DNA of 64,000 nucleotides from Lachnospiraceae bacterium MD329 (GTDB lineage Bacteria; Bacillota; Clostridia; UBA1381): the NCBI GenBank assembly GCA_010206265.1, contig VIQV01000029.1:124001-188000 (forward strand), written 5' to 3'. Position 1 is the stretch's first letter. Each line of letters begins with the position of its first letter. A program made the position numbers and the translations under genes. The notes below the pieces were generated by a model, which ran no database searches, had not been told where the DNA came from, and worked only from the letters and a program-made list of their open reading frames with translations. This document shows positions 29,219 through 36,554 of the stretch, one piece after another.

Positions 29219-30052
29219 TTAATTGCCTGTCGCCGTACTGCTTTTGAATACATAAATTGCATTCTTTTTCTGACTGAGTACAAATGCGTCATAATATACT
29301 CTGCCTTCAACCAGCCAGCCGTTTATTCCTGGAGGATTATCGTGAATTTTATATTCCGAAAGTTTTACAGGCGCAGTAACTGCCGACTGATTTGTTATAA
29401 TCAGCTCCACACCTTCCGGCAGATATGATGTCGGTACAACAATAACTGGAATACCGTCAATTGAACCAACCTGACCTTTTATAAGCATTTCCTGAGCCAT
29501 ATCACCGTTTCTTATAAAGCTTGCGTCCTCTTTGATGTTCTTGTAAAAGTTTGTCGAAACGAACGCAACACAGCCTGTAAGCGGTACGTTGTTTTCGATA
29601 AGCTCTGACGCGCCCGTCAGAAACGTATCGTATGCGGTAGTTTTGTTTAGTGTCCCTGTAACCGTCTTGCCTGCTCCCGTACAGATTTTCTCGAAACGGT
29701 ATTTGTCGATCTCGGGAACTACTACTTCACGTATTTGTCTTTGCAAAGCCGCACCTGCCGCATTTGACATCTGCGTATCGTTATATGTACCGCGGTCAAT
29801 CGTAAATGTAAAGCTCCTGTCCTTTGACATTGTAAGTTCCTGAACATTGCTCTCCAGTTCCTGCGGCGCGCCGTAACGGCTTGTTCCCGTTACGGAGTAA
29901 TCGTTCATATCCGCCGTCGGCACACTGTAGACATTTACGGTTTTCACGCCTACAAAGTCGTAATCGTTATTTACCGCAGGAGAAGTCATTGACTCCCTTG
30001 CAAATTTTTCATCAATTTTCTGAGCATATTTACTTGCGTAATTTATAGCCAT
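29219..30052 (-). CDS. Major capsid protein
   Basis: 277 residues. MAINYASKYAQKIDEKFARES at the start and TFTIDRGTYNDTQMSNAAGAALQRQ in the middle match HK97-fold major capsid proteins of the Gram-positive type that use a separate scaffold. No N-terminal delta domain, so the scaffold gene upstream provides that role. Complete by length; together with the short tape measure it implies a small siphovirus-like particle. Confidence 0.88.
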   Translation of the reverse strand: MAINYASKYAQKIDEKFARESMTSPAVNNDYDFVGVKTVNVYSVPTADMNDYSVTGTSRYGAPQELESNVQELTMSKDRSFTFTIDRGTYNDTQMSNAAGAALQRQIREVVVPEIDKYRFEKICTGAGKTVTGTLNKTTAYDTFLTGASELIENNVPLTGCVAFVSTNFYKNIKEDASFIRNGDMAQEMLIKGQVGSIDGIPVIVVPTSYLPEGVELIITNQSAVTAPVKLSEYKIHDNPPGINGWLVEGRVYYDAFVLSQKKNAIYVFKSSTATGN

Positions 30053-30075
30053 TATTTATCAATCCTTTCTGTTAA

Positions 30076-30618
30076 TTATATCCCTAACCCGTTTAAAAAC
30101 GGGTCGCTGCCTTCTGGAACTTCTCTTGAAATTTTCGGTGTCTTACCCTTTAATCTTTCGTACAGTCCCGCCTCAATTGCCTTTAAATATTCTGCCTTGA
30201 AAGCGGAAATATTTTTAACCGTCGTTTCCTTGTCAGCGTCGGCAAGCATATGTGCAAACGTTACGGGCAAATTCTGCGCCGCAAGCTCCTTTGCCGCCTC
30301 AAACTCGGCTCTTTCGCTGACATACTGCTGTCTTTCCTCCTCGAAGTCCTTCTGCTTTTTCTCCATTTCAAACTTCGCTCTTTCCTCAGCAGACATTGAG
30401 GCAAGACGCGCGGCGTCCTCTCTTTCGGCAGTAACTCTCGTTTCCATATCCTTTTCCCACGCCTGCTTTGCGCCGGCAAGCTCCTCGCTTATAAGACTTT
30501 TGACAAGCTCTTTAAGCTCATCATTTTTATGTCCTTCATTATTCTTGTCCGATGACTTTTTATGTCCCTCATTTTTGTTTTGAGCATCGTTTTTTAGTGT
30601 CCCTTTTTCTTTATCCAT
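30076..30618 (-). CDS. Capsid scaffolding protein (DUF4355-like)
   Basis: 180 residues, highly charged and helical (Lys/Glu/Asp-rich, coiled coil about 45-120), with a C-terminal KISREVPEGSDPFLNGLG tail typical of DUF4355 scaffolds. These bind capsid subunits and guide shell assembly. It directly precedes the capsid gene. Confidence 0.85.
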   Translation of the reverse strand: MDKEKGTLKNDAQNKNEGHKKSSDKNNEGHKNDELKELVKSLISEELAGAKQAWEKDMETRVTAEREDAARLASMSAEERAKFEMEKKQKDFEEERQQYVSERAEFEAAKELAAQNLPVTFAHMLADADKETTVKNISAFKAEYLKAIEAGLYERLKGKTPKISREVPEGSDPFLNGLGI

Positions 30619-30639
30619 TGTTCTTCCTCCTTTATCATT

Positions 30640-31956
30640 TTAGTGTCCCTGCGGTCTTGCTGATTTTTCCTCCAATAAACGTTCCTTTTGCGCTAACTGC
30701 GCCTCCTCCTTGGCGTCACCGACAAACGAAAGCTGACTTAACAGCGTTTCATTCGTTGCAATACCCGAAAGATTTCTTATCATTTGTGAAACTTCAAGCT
30801 CATTTACAGGCAGATTTCTTGTAAAAACAGCGTCAATCCTATGCAGCGGCACATATTCCATAGCTCCTTTAAGAGATAGAAAATTAATGTACAGCTCCAA
30901 CCGTCTTTTTAACGACTTCGCAAAATAGCGTTCCTTGTTTCTTATGTGCTGTTCAAAACCCATAAGCTTGTACTTTATCGCTACTCCGGATAAATTGGTT
31001 CCGAAGGTCTGGTCGGATAAATCAGGTATCATTGAAAAACGGTGAATATCCGATTTAAGACTGTCACGCAAAACCTCAATATCGCCCTCCGACATAACCT
31101 TTGCAAGATATTCCGCCTCCGCACCGTCATAACCCATAAGAATACGTTCCTCGCGCAGTTTCTTTGCCTGATCACTGTCAATTTCAATATTCCTCAGGAA
31201 CAAAAATGCGTCAACAAACTGCTCCTTATCATTTACACGGTCCGACTGCAAAACATTATACGCGTCAATAAGCGGTATAAGCTGTTCAAAATCACCCTGC
31301 TTTTCTTCGTTGTTTCGGTATTCAATAAGCGGTATGGCGCCAAAATAATGACGGTGTTTTTCACTTAAAGTCATATGCGTAAAACTGTCGGCGCTGTTGG
31401 TATAGGTGTACATATACTCACTGTCGCACACCATACAGCATACGCTTGTTACACTGCCGTCAACATCACGGTTTTTATAGTAATGAATACCATAAATCGG
31501 ATTTTCACCGACGCCCGAACCATACACCACAAATGTATTCATCGGCGGCAGGCACACGCTTTTGGGCTGAGAATACTCATCCACATAAACAAGCTCGTAT
31601 GCTTTGCCGTAAATACTCATCATCTTTTCAAGCTCCGAATCAATACTTGCCATATCCTGAACAATAAAACTGTTTTTAAGCGACTCAATATCGTAGCCAT
31701 CGGAACAGGTGTACGTTATCGGATTTCCGACAAGATAACTCTTTGCAATATCCACAATATATTTTGCGTGATTGCACACAACCCTGTTGTTTGCAACTCC
31801 CTCGCTGTAACGGCGCCGTGAAATAATATCGTGTTTACCCGTATAGTAGTTTCTTAACTGCTCGTAACGCTCGCCCTCAAGCATATGACGCGCAATTAAT
31901 TTTTGAAGTATGACATCATCTAAACCGTCATTTAAGATTTTTTCATCAATTATCAT
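30640..31956 (-). CDS. Portal protein (SPP1 gp6-like)
   Basis: 438 residues. Motifs VDIAKSYLVGNPITYTCSDG and SGVAIKYKLMGFEQHIRNKE are typical of SPP1-type portal proteins, which form the dodecameric ring through which DNA enters the head. Start overlaps the terminase stop by four bases (ATGA). The SPP1-type minor head protein gene that often follows a portal is missing here. Confidence 0.9.
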   Translation of the reverse strand: MIIDEKILNDGLDDVILQKLIARHMLEGERYEQLRNYYTGKHDIISRRRYSEGVANNRVVCNHAKYIVDIAKSYLVGNPITYTCSDGYDIESLKNSFIVQDMASIDSELEKMMSIYGKAYELVYVDEYSQPKSVCLPPMNTFVVYGSGVGENPIYGIHYYKNRDVDGSVTSVCCMVCDSEYMYTYTNSADSFTHMTLSEKHRHYFGAIPLIEYRNNEEKQGDFEQLIPLIDAYNVLQSDRVNDKEQFVDAFLFLRNIEIDSDQAKKLREERILMGYDGAEAEYLAKVMSEGDIEVLRDSLKSDIHRFSMIPDLSDQTFGTNLSGVAIKYKLMGFEQHIRNKERYFAKSLKRRLELYINFLSLKGAMEYVPLHRIDAVFTRNLPVNELEVSQMIRNLSGIATNETLLSQLSFVGDAKEEAQLAQKERLLEEKSARPQGH

Positions 31957-33203
31957 ACATTCAGCTCCTTTCTGTTTATAATCCTCGCTCTTTTGTTTGT
32001 GATATACTCCTCAAGCGCATAACGCACGGCGTCAATACTATGATTGTTCTTATCAGGGTATTCAGCCTTAAATTCACCGTTTTTATCACGTTCCAGCTCG
32101 TACTCCGAAAACTCGCGCGCAGTATTTTTACACCGCTCCGAGTCAATCACAATTTTTCTTAAACCCTGCAAAAACCGTATACCGTATTCAATACTGTCAG
32201 GACCCTTGCGAGCTCCGCGCACACGCAGTCCATATCCTCTCAAATCATTTATACTCTTTGGTTCGGCGCTGTCACAAATAATGAGCCTTTCGGGATAACC
32301 ATACCGATAAATCTCTTCCGCCGCCCTGAAATTCGTCATTCCCGCCGCATATATCTCTCCAAAGATAAATAACACGTCATTATGAAGGTAACAAACGACA
32401 TAAACAAACGGGTCTGACGCAAAACCAAAATCAATACCGCATTTAACGTTATCAAAGCCCTGTATTTCGTCATCGGTAATACGGCGTATTTCGAGATTAT
32501 CAAACACTTCACCGCCCGTACCCGTCACTTCTCCGAGATACTCGTGATTATATTGTGTCGGGTGTAGCTTTTTAAGATACTCAGCCTCCAAAAAAAATTG
32601 TTCACCGAGCCATTCGCGCGGTACGTCAAGATATGTGCTTTTATGTACAAGCGTATCTTTACGCCGCTTTTGTATTTCACGGTTTACCCAGTTACGCCTG
32701 TTTTGCGGCGGGTTGTAGGAATAGAACACGGTAAATTTTTCACCGCCGCGCAGCATTGACTGGTTTATGGAACGGATTTCTTTCATTCCGTGAAACTCGT
32801 CAAGCTCCTCATACCAGACATAACGAATATAACCTTTTGTAACTTTTGTGGATTTAAGCTTTTGCGGCTTGTCAGCGCCCCGAAAAAGAATTTTCTGCCC
32901 TGTTTTTTTATAAATCATTTCGGGAACACTCGCTTTAATTTCCCACATATCGCCTACATTCAGCTTTTCCACTGCCCATATAAGCTGTGACAGCACACTG
33001 TCACGCAAATATGCGCCGACCTTGCGGAGTACAACGGCATTTGCGTCGGGATTCCGCATTATACCGAGGATTATTTCAATACTGATAAAACTTGATTTCG
33101 TCGAACCGCGTCCGCCGCACAGCCAGATGTGAGTGTAATCGTCAAGCGACCTGTGCACACTGTAAAATGACGGTGCGATAAGTTCATTCAGTCTTACCTG
33201 CAT
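31953..33203 (-). CDS. Large terminase subunit (PBSX family)
   Basis: About 416 residues. Walker A is CGGRGSTKSS (about residue 30); the C-terminal RNase H-like nuclease shows KCGIDFGFASDPF, LIICDSAEPKS and HSIDAVRYAL with its acidic metal ligands. It pumps DNA into the head and cuts it. The ATG at 33203 is preferred (GGTGA upstream); a GTG at 33212 is possible. Start overlaps the small terminase gene. All catalytic motifs look intact. Confidence 0.92.
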   Translation of the reverse strand: MQVRLNELIAPSFYSVHRSLDDYTHIWLCGGRGSTKSSFISIEIILGIMRNPDANAVVLRKVGAYLRDSVLSQLIWAVEKLNVGDMWEIKASVPEMIYKKTGQKILFRGADKPQKLKSTKVTKGYIRYVWYEELDEFHGMKEIRSINQSMLRGGEKFTVFYSYNPPQNRRNWVNREIQKRRKDTLVHKSTYLDVPREWLGEQFFLEAEYLKKLHPTQYNHEYLGEVTGTGGEVFDNLEIRRITDDEIQGFDNVKCGIDFGFASDPFVYVVCYLHNDVLFIFGEIYAAGMTNFRAAEEIYRYGYPERLIICDSAEPKSINDLRGYGLRVRGARKGPDSIEYGIRFLQGLRKIVIDSERCKNTAREFSEYELERDKNGEFKAEYPDKNNHSIDAVRYALEEYITNKRARIINRKELNV

Positions 33204-33408
33204 TTTTATCACCTGAAATATTGTCCACGATAATTACCTCACCCGTATCTGCCGCACGGCTTTCGGTAAACAGTCCGTAATGCTTTCCCAGAAGCTCAGC
33301 CGCCTTAAAGGAATCGGAAAACTTTATATTGTCTGTTTCATCAAAGCCGTCGCGCCGCATTACGTCTGTAAGGTATTCAAGAACCTCATTTTCATCTGCC
33401 ACACTCAC
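33184..33408 (-). CDS. Small terminase subunit lacking its DNA-binding domain
   Basis: 74 residues from GTG 33408, seven bases after AGGAGG. The sequence ENEVLEYLTDVMRRDGFDET ... FKAAELLGKHYGLFTE matches the C-terminal half of Terminase_2 family small subunits (the oligomerisation and TerL-contact part). The N-terminal helix-turn-helix region, normally 60-80 residues that recognises pac DNA, is absent. The longer open frame to 33468 overlaps the preceding Zn-ribbon gene, has no ribosome site, and its extra residues do not resemble the domain. See findings: loss of site recognition is expected if the particle packages any DNA. Confidence 0.72.
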   Translation of the reverse strand: MSVADENEVLEYLTDVMRRDGFDETDNIKFSDSFKAAELLGKHYGLFTESRAADTGEVIIVDNISGDKNAGKTE

Positions 33409-33419
33409 AGCGTCACCTC

Positions 33420-33620
33420 CTAAAACAGAACTTCTGTTTTGTAAATACACTCGCTGCAGCCGACACATTCCTCGTCCTCGTCGAGGTAATAATGTTCAGG
33501 CTCATACGCTCCGCACACGGGACATTTCTCATATTCCGCCTCACCGCAGTCACCGTAATTTTCCGTCCGCTCTCTTTCCATTGCCAAGAGCGACATCGGG
33601 TCATCATTTGAATAAATCAT
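33420..33620 (-). CDS. Small zinc-ribbon protein, first gene of the particle operon
   Basis: 66 residues with two CxxC pairs: CPVCGAYEPEHYY and CVGCSECIY, a classic zinc ribbon. It begins MIYSNDDPMSLLAMERERTE. AAAGGAG lies five bases before ATG 33620. Similar small Cys-rich proteins occur beside terminase genes in clostridial prophages, function unknown. A competing frame at 33413-33607 lacks Cys spacing and a ribosome site. Confidence 0.7.
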   Translation of the reverse strand: MIYSNDDPMSLLAMERERTENYGDCGEAEYEKCPVCGAYEPEHYYLDEDEECVGCSECIYKTEVLF

Positions 33621-33633
33621 AAGCACTCCTTTC

Positions 33634-33859: not shown

Positions 33860-34489
33860 ATGACAACGGGCGAAAGAATACGCCGTCTGCGCAAGGAACA
33901 CGGACTGACACAAGAGGAGCTTGGCGCAAAAATCGGTGTACAGAAAGCAGCCATACAAAAATACGAAAAAGGCACAGTAACAAATATTAAGCGCGATTCA
34001 CTTATAAAGCTGGCGCAGATTCTTGATACAACCCCCGAATACCTTCTCGGCTGGGACAATGCCCCTGCCAATGTTGAGGCGGTGGACGAAAGCGAATTTG
34101 TAAATATACCGATTATAGGCAGGGTTGCGGCAGGCGTTACCTGCTTTGCGGAAAACAATATTACAGGTTATGAGCCTGTAATGCGGAGTGACCTCTCACA
34201 CGGTGAGCAGTATGCGTTTTTACGGGTAGTCGGCGACAGTATGTACCCTGTATTTATGGAAGGCGACCTCGTGCTTGTACGCTGTCAGACCTCAGTTGAC
34301 AGCGGCAGTTATGCGGTAGTCACAATTGATGATGAAGACGGTGTTGTAAAAAAAGTAGTTTATGACAGGGACTTTATCGAACTTCAGTCAATTAACCCTA
34401 TGTATCCGCCGCGCAGGTTTGAAGGCGAGGAAGTTTTACGTATACGTGTTTTCGGACTTGTTAAAGAAATAAAGCGAAAATTCCGATAA
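33860..34489 (+). CDS. LexA/CI-like repressor with self-cleavage domain
   Basis: 209 residues. Helix-turn-helix of the XRE type at about 5-60 (LTQEELGAKIGVQKAAIQKY), then an S24 peptidase domain: cleavage site Ala91-Gly92 in GRVAAGVT, nucleophile Ser127 in VVGDSMYP and the general-base Lys at about 164 in GVVKKV. All parts needed for RecA-stimulated self-cleavage are present, so DNA damage should release repression. It faces away from the particle operon with the operator array between them. AAAGGAGG precedes the ATG. Confidence 0.93.
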   Translation: MTTGERIRRLRKEHGLTQEELGAKIGVQKAAIQKYEKGTVTNIKRDSLIKLAQILDTTPEYLLGWDNAPANVEAVDESEFVNIPIIGRVAAGVTCFAENNITGYEPVMRSDLSHGEQYAFLRVVGDSMYPVFMEGDLVLVRCQTSVDSGSYAVVTIDDEDGVVKKVVYDRDFIELQSINPMYPPRRFEGEEVLRIRVFGLVKEIKRKFR

Positions 34490-35934: not shown

Positions 35935-36186
35935 ATGGAATTTAACGAAACAATGAAAATCAACTTAGAATTCGACAAGGCTCAGGAAGTCCGAGAAACA
36001 GTCGCTAAAGTTTACGAGGCTCTGAAAATCAAAGGTTATGACCCAATAAGCCAGATAGTCGGATATATCCTTTCGGGTGACCCGACTTACATAACCAGCT
36101 ATAACGGAGCAAGAGGTCTTATTGTTAAAATCGAACGCGACGAACTTCTGGAGGAGTTTGCAAAAACTTATATAAACACGCTTTAA
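35935..36186 (+). CDS. ireB: IreB family regulatory protein (UPF0297)
   Basis: 83 residues: [13 protein letters not shown] and [20 protein letters not shown] match IreB, a small dimer phosphorylated by PASTA serine/threonine kinases and linked to cephalosporin tolerance in enterococci. AAGGGTGAGAGAAAG precedes the ATG. The usual ruvX and yrzB partners do not follow. A terminator comes five bases after the stop. Confidence 0.94.
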
Positions 36187-36219: not shown

Positions 36220-36227
36220 TTGTTTTG

Positions 36228-36361
36228 TTGTTAAAAGAGGGCAGAATGAGAGAACCCCCGCTGTAAAACGGGGGTTCAATGCAATACATACTTAAATAAA
36301 ATTCCTATATTAAATTGTAATGTAAGCCGACATACTTACGTTCTCTGCCCTCCTTTAACAA
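36228..36361 (-). ncRNA. Structured 134-base element with paired ends (RNA or MITE-like)
   Basis: The ends are inverted repeats: TTGTTAAAAGAGGGCAGA on the left and the complement of TTGTTAAAGGAGGGCAGA on the right. Inside is a strong hairpin GAACCCCCG/CGGGGGTTC (36253-36279, loop about nine bases). Where the arms differ, the minus-strand RNA has a G-U pair and the plus-strand RNA an A-C mismatch, which favours a minus-strand RNA. No ORF. It lies between two terminators. A short inverted-repeat mobile element is the alternative. Confidence 0.4.
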
Positions 36362-36519
36362 TAAAAAATGCGCAGCCGAAGCTACGCATAAAAATACATA
36401 GCTCGACTTTGTTGCGACACAAAATATCGTACAATACATTAAGTATGCAGATTTGAGCCTGTATTTTTAACAAAAAAAATACACACTTAAACGTACTATA
36501 CAATATTCTTTTGTGTCGC
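36362..36519 (-). ncRNA. Candidate noncoding RNA with a long near-perfect stem
   Basis: On the minus strand a promoter (TTTACA-17-TATAAT, 36554-36526) is followed by an RNA starting near GCGACACAAAAG. The first 36 or so bases pair with 36413-36450 in an almost unbroken stem; differences between the arms are G-U pairs on the minus strand. The tip holds small hairpins (TATTTTT/AAAAATA). A terminator ATGCGTAGC-TTCG-GCTGCGCAT (36389-36368) with TTTTTT follows. Length is about 158 bases, no ORF. A rod shape as in 6S RNA is possible, but I do not recognise a known family. Confidence 0.6.
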
Positions 36520-36554
36520 AAATATATTATATCATATAATTTAATATTTGTAAA
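36511..36554. promoter_or_regulatory. Overlapping divergent promoters
   Basis: Minus strand: TTTACA (36554-36549), 17 bases, TATAAT (36531-36526), for the RNA at 36362-36519. Plus strand: TTGTGT (36511-36516), 18 bases, TATAAT (36535-36540), for the gene at 36585. They overlap, so the two transcripts may compete. Confidence 0.65.

Follow-up and report, generated by a model that had tools for sequence, protein, structure and literature searches.

A stretch of 64,000 nucleotides from Lachnospiraceae bacterium MD329 (the window) contains a long, nearly perfect stem on its minus strand, and the question raised by this locus is what kind of RNA the stem belongs to and what that RNA does. A reading made from the sequence alone had noted a good promoter, an almost unbroken stem and a GC-rich TTCG terminator, and had offered a 6S-like regulator of RNA polymerase or a dsRNA-type regulator as identities. 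Our comparison of related loci points elsewhere: the RNA is probably a member of a multi-copy family of self-contained leaders, each combining a promoter with an attenuator whose terminator would be switched by a pseudoknot.

Architecture of the RNA in the window

Promoter and terminator searches and folding together recovered the promoter, the stem of about 36 bp and the TTCG terminator, and all three lie on the minus strand. The features of the locus are as follows.

36526..36554, minus strand: promoter, with -35 TTTACA at 36554-36549, a 17-nt spacer and extended -10 TGATATAAT (hexamer 36531-36526)
36363..36525, minus strand: whole RNA as modelled, 163 nt (covariance model R1, 133.6 bits)
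36509..36521, minus strand: 5' strand of the outer stem P1, TTGCGACACAAAA (folding and co-variation)
36412..36424, minus strand: 3' strand of P1, TTTTGTGTCGCAA (folding and co-variation)
36472..36482, minus strand: apical U tract, alternative partner for the A5 loop strand (weak co-variation, z 4.4 and 4.7)
36455..36468, minus strand: loop strand AAAAATACAGGCTC, the 5' strand of the putative pseudoknot (pairing with 36404-36390, -14.0 kcal/mol)
36390..36404, minus strand: linker GAGCTATGTATTTTT, the 3' strand of the putative pseudoknot or the 5' strand of the antiterminator (antiterminator -13.2 kcal/mol)
36368..36389, minus strand: terminator hairpin ATGCGTAGC-TTCG-GCTGCGCAT, followed by a U tract (-12.9 kcal/mol; co-variation)

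The promoter agrees with the consensus at 11 of 12 positions, and the 5' start of the RNA, which was not mapped, is an estimate from the promoter and the model. The stem pairs 36519-36484 with 36450-36413 almost completely (duplex -37.2 kcal/mol), with one 3-nt and one 1-nt bulge, both on the 5' side. Two terminator-like sites were found in the region against 0.3 expected, the hairpin at 36389-36368 among them. The fold of the 201-nt region reached -73.4 kcal/mol, compared with -39.7 +/- 3.9 kcal/mol in 200 shuffles (z -8.7; 0/200 equal). The assignment of the RNA to the minus strand, which had been argued from the G-U pairs, held: 107 nt of this strand fold at -44.9 kcal/mol with 44 pairs, of which 9 are G-U, whereas the plus strand gives -27.4 kcal/mol and 38 pairs. 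One overlapping ORF, a 61-aa TTG frame, lacks support.

The earlier statement that the RNA falls in no known family agrees with the Rfam search: at gathering score, Rfam 15 returned only tRNAs in the window and 20 related loci, and the best weak matches for the RNA itself were eukaryotic microRNA hairpins, far under the cut-off. We found no description of such an RNA in open-licence PMC papers, their supplements excepted; PMC8040213 reports 3,161 candidates, among which an unnamed entry for this RNA is possible. Apparently, this RNA switch family has not been described so far. As a separate observation, sub-threshold matches to Gut-1 RNA (RF01706) form an opposite-strand pair near a copy of the RNA at two loci, L009 (862-943, plus; 964-1034, minus) and L207 (2082-2162, plus; 2163-2231, minus).

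A multi-copy family under selection for pairing

At the DNA level, five more places in the window's own genome matched with 69-79% identity over the aligned parts, and a search of 41 genomes gave matches in 21. The custom covariance model R1, built from 10 copies (169 positions, 40 pairs), gave 25 own-genome matches at E<=0.001 and 31 at E<=0.1. With the query genome counted in each tally, matches occurred in 76 of 95 genomes of the order (at most 26 per genome) and in 78 of 291 genomes, about a quarter, of a class sample that also holds relatives from the order. In the phylum sample of 199 genomes, the query genome alone matched (0/198 others at E<=1e-5), which bounds the false-positive rate. 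Ten of the 60 fetched copies (L182-L191) and the weakest own-genome copies (L052-L056) stayed outside the analyses and L084 was dropped; the own-genome counts in the downstream-gene and single-genome pairing tests refer to 24 copies.

An exact core pattern was present in 47 stretches of named records, which comprised metagenome-assembled Clostridia, Oscillospiraceae, Ruminococcus, Eubacterium, Monoglobus and Avimonoglobus, and one record labelled Bacteroides. This last record (L127, JAMPEQ010000012.1, Bacteroides sp.) is likely a mislabelled bin or contamination. Each of two exact patterns had 0 matches in viral contigs, plasmids gave no matches, and the phage records with a match were two unannotated "Bacteriophage sp." scaffolds. 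In the "Bacteriophage sp." human-faeces scaffold MT835845.1 (L307), a 119.7-bit copy at 1458-1617 precedes a lipoprotein-like gene; we take its neighbour genes to be chromosomal, which makes the phage label doubtful.

The promoter belongs to the unit. Among 155 copies (157 distinct copies minus two with an unrecognisable loop strand or segments too short), the -10 element matched at least 5 of 6 consensus positions in 151 and the TG in 139, and comparison of the sequences places the promoter at a fixed distance from the RNA across the family. Some units occur in tandem, two or three in a row and each complete with promoter and terminator; such arrays often precede one gene (L245, L236, L211, L233), and the window's own genome has arrays at C23:246105/246308 and C6:7912/8115.

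The arms of the stem vary among homologues and their pairing is kept, in line with the earlier suggestion that selection acts on the RNA. Across an alignment of 114 matches, 111 of them distinct, 93.9% of 4,261 cells were paired, and 39 of 40 pairs had changed on both sides, in 1,072 cells where shuffles gave 320 (0/500); this alignment had been fitted to the modelled structure. Registers slid by 1-3 columns paired in 30-53% of cells (at most 52.8%). A cleaner test comes from the initial alignment, made with MAFFT, which gave 91.0% paired cells and 22 double-change pairs against 11.2 expected (0/500). The stem contains a conserved AAUA internal loop, and beyond the switch strands few unpaired bases are conserved.

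Two competing pairings of the linker

The loop strand, which reads AAAAAUGCANGCUC in most copies, has its complement in the linker (GAGC..UGCAUUUUU) just under the stem, and this linker has a second complementary partner in the terminator 5' strand. Neither the pseudoknot nor the antiterminator pairing was used in building the covariance model. In 111 copies, the duplex of a loop with its own linker averaged -15.35 kcal/mol compared with -11.1 kcal/mol for swapped partners, and that of a linker with its own terminator 5' strand averaged -11.69 compared with -8.8 kcal/mol (0 of 2,000 permutations in both cases). The control pair, loop and terminator 5' strand, had no preference for its own partner in these copies (325/2,000).

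The two pairings also stood out when all 45 pairs of ten segments were compared across 155 copies, with swapped sets that may include near relatives. The top five pairs were the P1 helices (z 44 and 43) and the terminator (z 40), all of which the alignment had fitted, followed by the pseudoknot (z 17) and the antiterminator (z 9). The next-ranked pairs (z 4.7 and 4.4) form the apical hairpin containing the loop strand. A further candidate, the P1 3' arm with the terminator 3' strand, pairs in isolated folds; it was rejected, as its z of 2.1 represents no real co-variation.

Permutations within single genomes gave 0 and 0 of 5,000 for the pseudoknot and the antiterminator in the query genome (24 copies), 0 and 6 of 5,000 in G037 (17 copies), and the less strong values of 15 and 86 of 5,000 in G089 (8 copies). 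Within a single genome, common descent of genomes is no explanation, and both pairings are significant there. A copy's own linker was the best or tied partner of its loop in 13/24 copies of the query genome, 3/17 of G037 and 4/8 of G089, and insulation of the pairings between copies is thus incomplete.

On the sequence evidence, these two co-varying pairings exclude each other, in the manner of a transcription attenuator. With the segments as first cut, the antiterminator was weaker than the terminator in 153/157 copies; the window copy is balanced (pseudoknot -14.0, antiterminator -13.2, terminator -12.9 kcal/mol) only with the full linker.

Genes behind the RNA

Of the 155 copies, 67 had, at a distance of 16-114 nt (median 23), a downstream ORF on the same strand with a ribosome site, at least 4 of these 67 ORFs being spurious-looking or redundant products of a simple gene caller. 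The remaining copies were followed by a tiny conserved ORF or element (11), a tandem copy (15), a contig end (2) or nothing recognised (60). Under a strict rule (strong ribosome site, ATG, >=60 aa, <=60 nt), a gene lay downstream in 37/148 cases and upstream in 2/63; under the loose rule, 29 of 46 copies sampled outside the order had a downstream gene. These counts argue for an association between the RNA and the genes behind it.

The genes also share a tendency. Signal-peptide-like starts, called with a crude hydrophobicity rule, were present in 31/40 leader genes of >=80 aa compared with 48/204 other ORFs of the same loci. Pfam searches of 63 leader proteins (the 67 less three spurious-looking frames and one redundant frame) pointed mainly to surface proteins, with LRR_5 in 19, Cu_amine_oxidN1 in 10, and SLH, CHAP and ABC_tran in 2 each; PHROGs and NCBIfam gave nothing useful for ten leader proteins. 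For one family of 77-aa proteins, 9 of 30 loci with a homologue had the RNA just upstream in the same orientation, about 18-68 nt away; these 9 were located in 8 genomes and 6 taxonomic families, and an RNA match was absent at the other 21. Members of this family at L057, L081, L207 and L226 are tied to the leader in several bacterial families, and the L057 protein matched nothing in PHROGs or NCBIfam.

The 60 gene-less copies have the same pairing energies as the others, and read-through control is therefore not obviously the function of every copy. The family might instead consist of free-standing small RNAs that act in trans, with terminator read-through into genes being incidental. The promoter at fixed spacing, the tandem arrays with a promoter and a terminator in each copy, and the intact pairing energies of the orphans are consistent with this explanation. 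However, an RNA already terminated has no evident need of a conserved antiterminator strand, the median of 23 nt before the gene in 67/155 copies leaves scant room for a second promoter, the downstream genes are enriched for surface proteins, and loops on average prefer their own linker over the other linkers of the genome. We regard a trans-acting role for the family as fairly unlikely.

The two identities offered by the sequence-only reading fare less well. The stem seen here, long, imperfect and AT-rich, and the length of about 165 nt would suit a 6S-like RNA that binds RNA polymerase. However, the Rfam 6S (SsrS) model gave no match even at permissive thresholds, and 6S RNA exists in one or two copies per genome, whereas dozens of diverged copies constitute this family, about 25 of them in the window's own genome. 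Its pseudoknot, antiterminator and leader position do not fit a 6S RNA either, and we give this identity next to no chance. A dsRNA-type regulator is likewise not what the family suggests: the stem is only one part of the unit, whose loop, linker and terminator co-vary as a switch, and the RNA leads a gene in many cases.

A model for the switch

We infer from these patterns that the unit is transcribed, in which direction it switches, that its stem bends and that a signal acts on it. The unit of the attenuator leader that we favour would comprise an extended -10 promoter, a long hairpin carrying the switch strand as its apical loop, the linker and an intrinsic terminator. The OFF state would rest on a pseudoknot of about 14 bp between loop and linker that keeps the linker off the terminator 5' strand; this strand, being free, would allow the terminator to form, and transcription would stop. 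In the ON state, the loop strand would be held in the apical hairpin and the linker would pair with the terminator 5' strand, so that polymerase reads on, mostly into a gene for a surface or secreted protein and, in the window's genome, often into a mini-ORF. Where no gene follows, mini-ORFs or read-through in antisense may be under the control of this switch, or the RNA may function in trans.

Since the stem is about 30 bp long and a median of 5 nt separates its base from the 3' strand of the pseudoknot, the OFF state would require a bent stem, with the conserved AAUA internal loop probably serving as the hinge. The signal would be whatever favours or blocks the bend, which may be a protein, a small molecule or folding kinetics alone. 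That few unpaired bases are conserved makes a protein or folding kinetics a better candidate than a metabolite pocket.

A metabolite riboswitch would be a special case of the attenuator leader, in which the pseudoknot forms an aptamer and governs a surface-protein regulon. preQ1 riboswitches use a pseudoknot to select between downstream helices, and the pseudoknot proposed here would likewise decide which of two such helices forms; here, however, its two strands are the loop of a roughly 30-bp stem and the sequence at the base of that stem, an arrangement for which the stem must bend, and a conserved ligand pocket is not seen. A pseudoknot combined with exclusive antiterminator and terminator helices is a common riboswitch platform, and PMC3723493 provides a precedent in the co-varying alternative stems of purine riboswitches. 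However, no complex core of conserved unpaired bases is present, although there may be a simple site, and the targets, surface proteins and small unknown ones, do not make up one metabolic pathway. From the sequences, we consider the riboswitch a possible but rather unlikely form of the leader.

The copy in the window

The copy in the window is atypical, in that no ordinary gene lies behind it. Two features follow at its 3' side, with ireB running towards the RNA.

36223..36362, minus strand: element 2, a conserved mini-element with a Shine-Dalgarno sequence, ATG (MSAYITI...), a C-rich hairpin and paired ends
35935..36186, plus strand: ireB, the convergent neighbour, outside the RNA (Pfam PF06135)

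Element 2 occurs six times in its own genome, not counting one short palindromic self-hit, and each time immediately 3' of a copy of the RNA. Mean identity among these six is 47% for the RNAs, 81% for element 2 and 99% for its 48-nt core, and the ends of element 2 pair in at least 4 of 6 copies. In element 2 (window 36362-36223, minus; L193-L197), the Shine-Dalgarno sequence is located inside a long-range stem and the peptide is MSAYITI(E...) only; such an arrangement recalls type I toxin mRNAs. Five other copies of the RNA are followed by a ribosome site and an ORF of 6-7 codons encoding M(K)RLKIP, MQLKIP or MKKLKIT. In these tiny ORFs, about 30-60 nt behind the RNA (L029, L031, L035, L037, L045), the codons differ and the peptide is kept. 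Element 2, or antisense read-through in the direction of ireB, may be what the window copy controls.

None of 29 relatives with ireB has the RNA beside it, and copies of the RNA thus come and go; the window copy seems to be a recent placement of an old family. A mobile, MITE-like repeat is an alternative, its inverted repeat being transcribed by chance, and up to 26 matches in one genome, a position at ireB that is conserved in none of the 29 relatives, and a degenerate copy of the 5' arm behind many orphan copies are compatible with this origin. However, compensatory changes keep the pairing of highly diverged same-genome copies, and keep it better on one strand; no transposase or target duplication was noticed by eye; and the position of the RNA next to one gene family recurs in 6 taxonomic families. 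We consider such a repeat very unlikely. A transposon inverted repeat was rejected as the main reading, with copies too diverged (47% mean identity among the six linked to element 2; 69-79% over the aligned parts at five other places) and strand-biased pairing.

The degenerate arm copy (TTGCGACACAAA or TTACCACACAAA, often after TGCAGGCTC) lies 40-60 nt behind the terminator and just before the terminator of the convergent gene at L136, L138, L139, L153, L163 and other orphan copies. As a self-pairing element it was rejected (7.7 of 12 with own arms, 7.6 with those of others), and alignment of the reverse-complemented 3' part gave few matches above shuffles. Elsewhere in the window, at 29219-33626 (minus) and 33860-34486 (plus), phage genes beside a Cro/CI-type S24 repressor represent a prophage or remnant, with a terminase large subunit at 31953-33212 and, by position, likely portal and head genes.

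Relation to known systems and biological meaning

The attenuator leader proposed here shares with known attenuator leaders and riboswitch platforms the 5' leader, the intrinsic terminator, the competing antiterminator strand and the upstream sensor hairpin. It differs from them in that a promoter at fixed spacing is part of the unit, in that its many copies have private stem sequences, and in that many of these copies are gene-less. ANTAR-controlled leaders carry paired small hexaloop hairpins, which by eye are absent here. As described in PMC3369931, ANTAR-controlled two-hairpin leaders resemble the present family as antitermination leaders found at several operons.

A structured RNA present in about a quarter of sampled Clostridia genomes has no Rfam family, and its apparent two-state design is linked to the surface proteins by which uncultured gut bacteria meet host and food. 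The private pairings raise the question of why there is selection for insulation between paralogous switches. As a long shot, the unit might be a portable, self-insulated cassette whose two nearly balanced folds, private to each copy through diverging stem and pseudoknot sequences with intact pairing, turn surface proteins and mini-peptides ON or OFF from cell to cell, by co-transcriptional folding alone or through one shared protein. If this is true, gut Clostridia would have in this cassette a way to vary their surfaces that needs RNA only.
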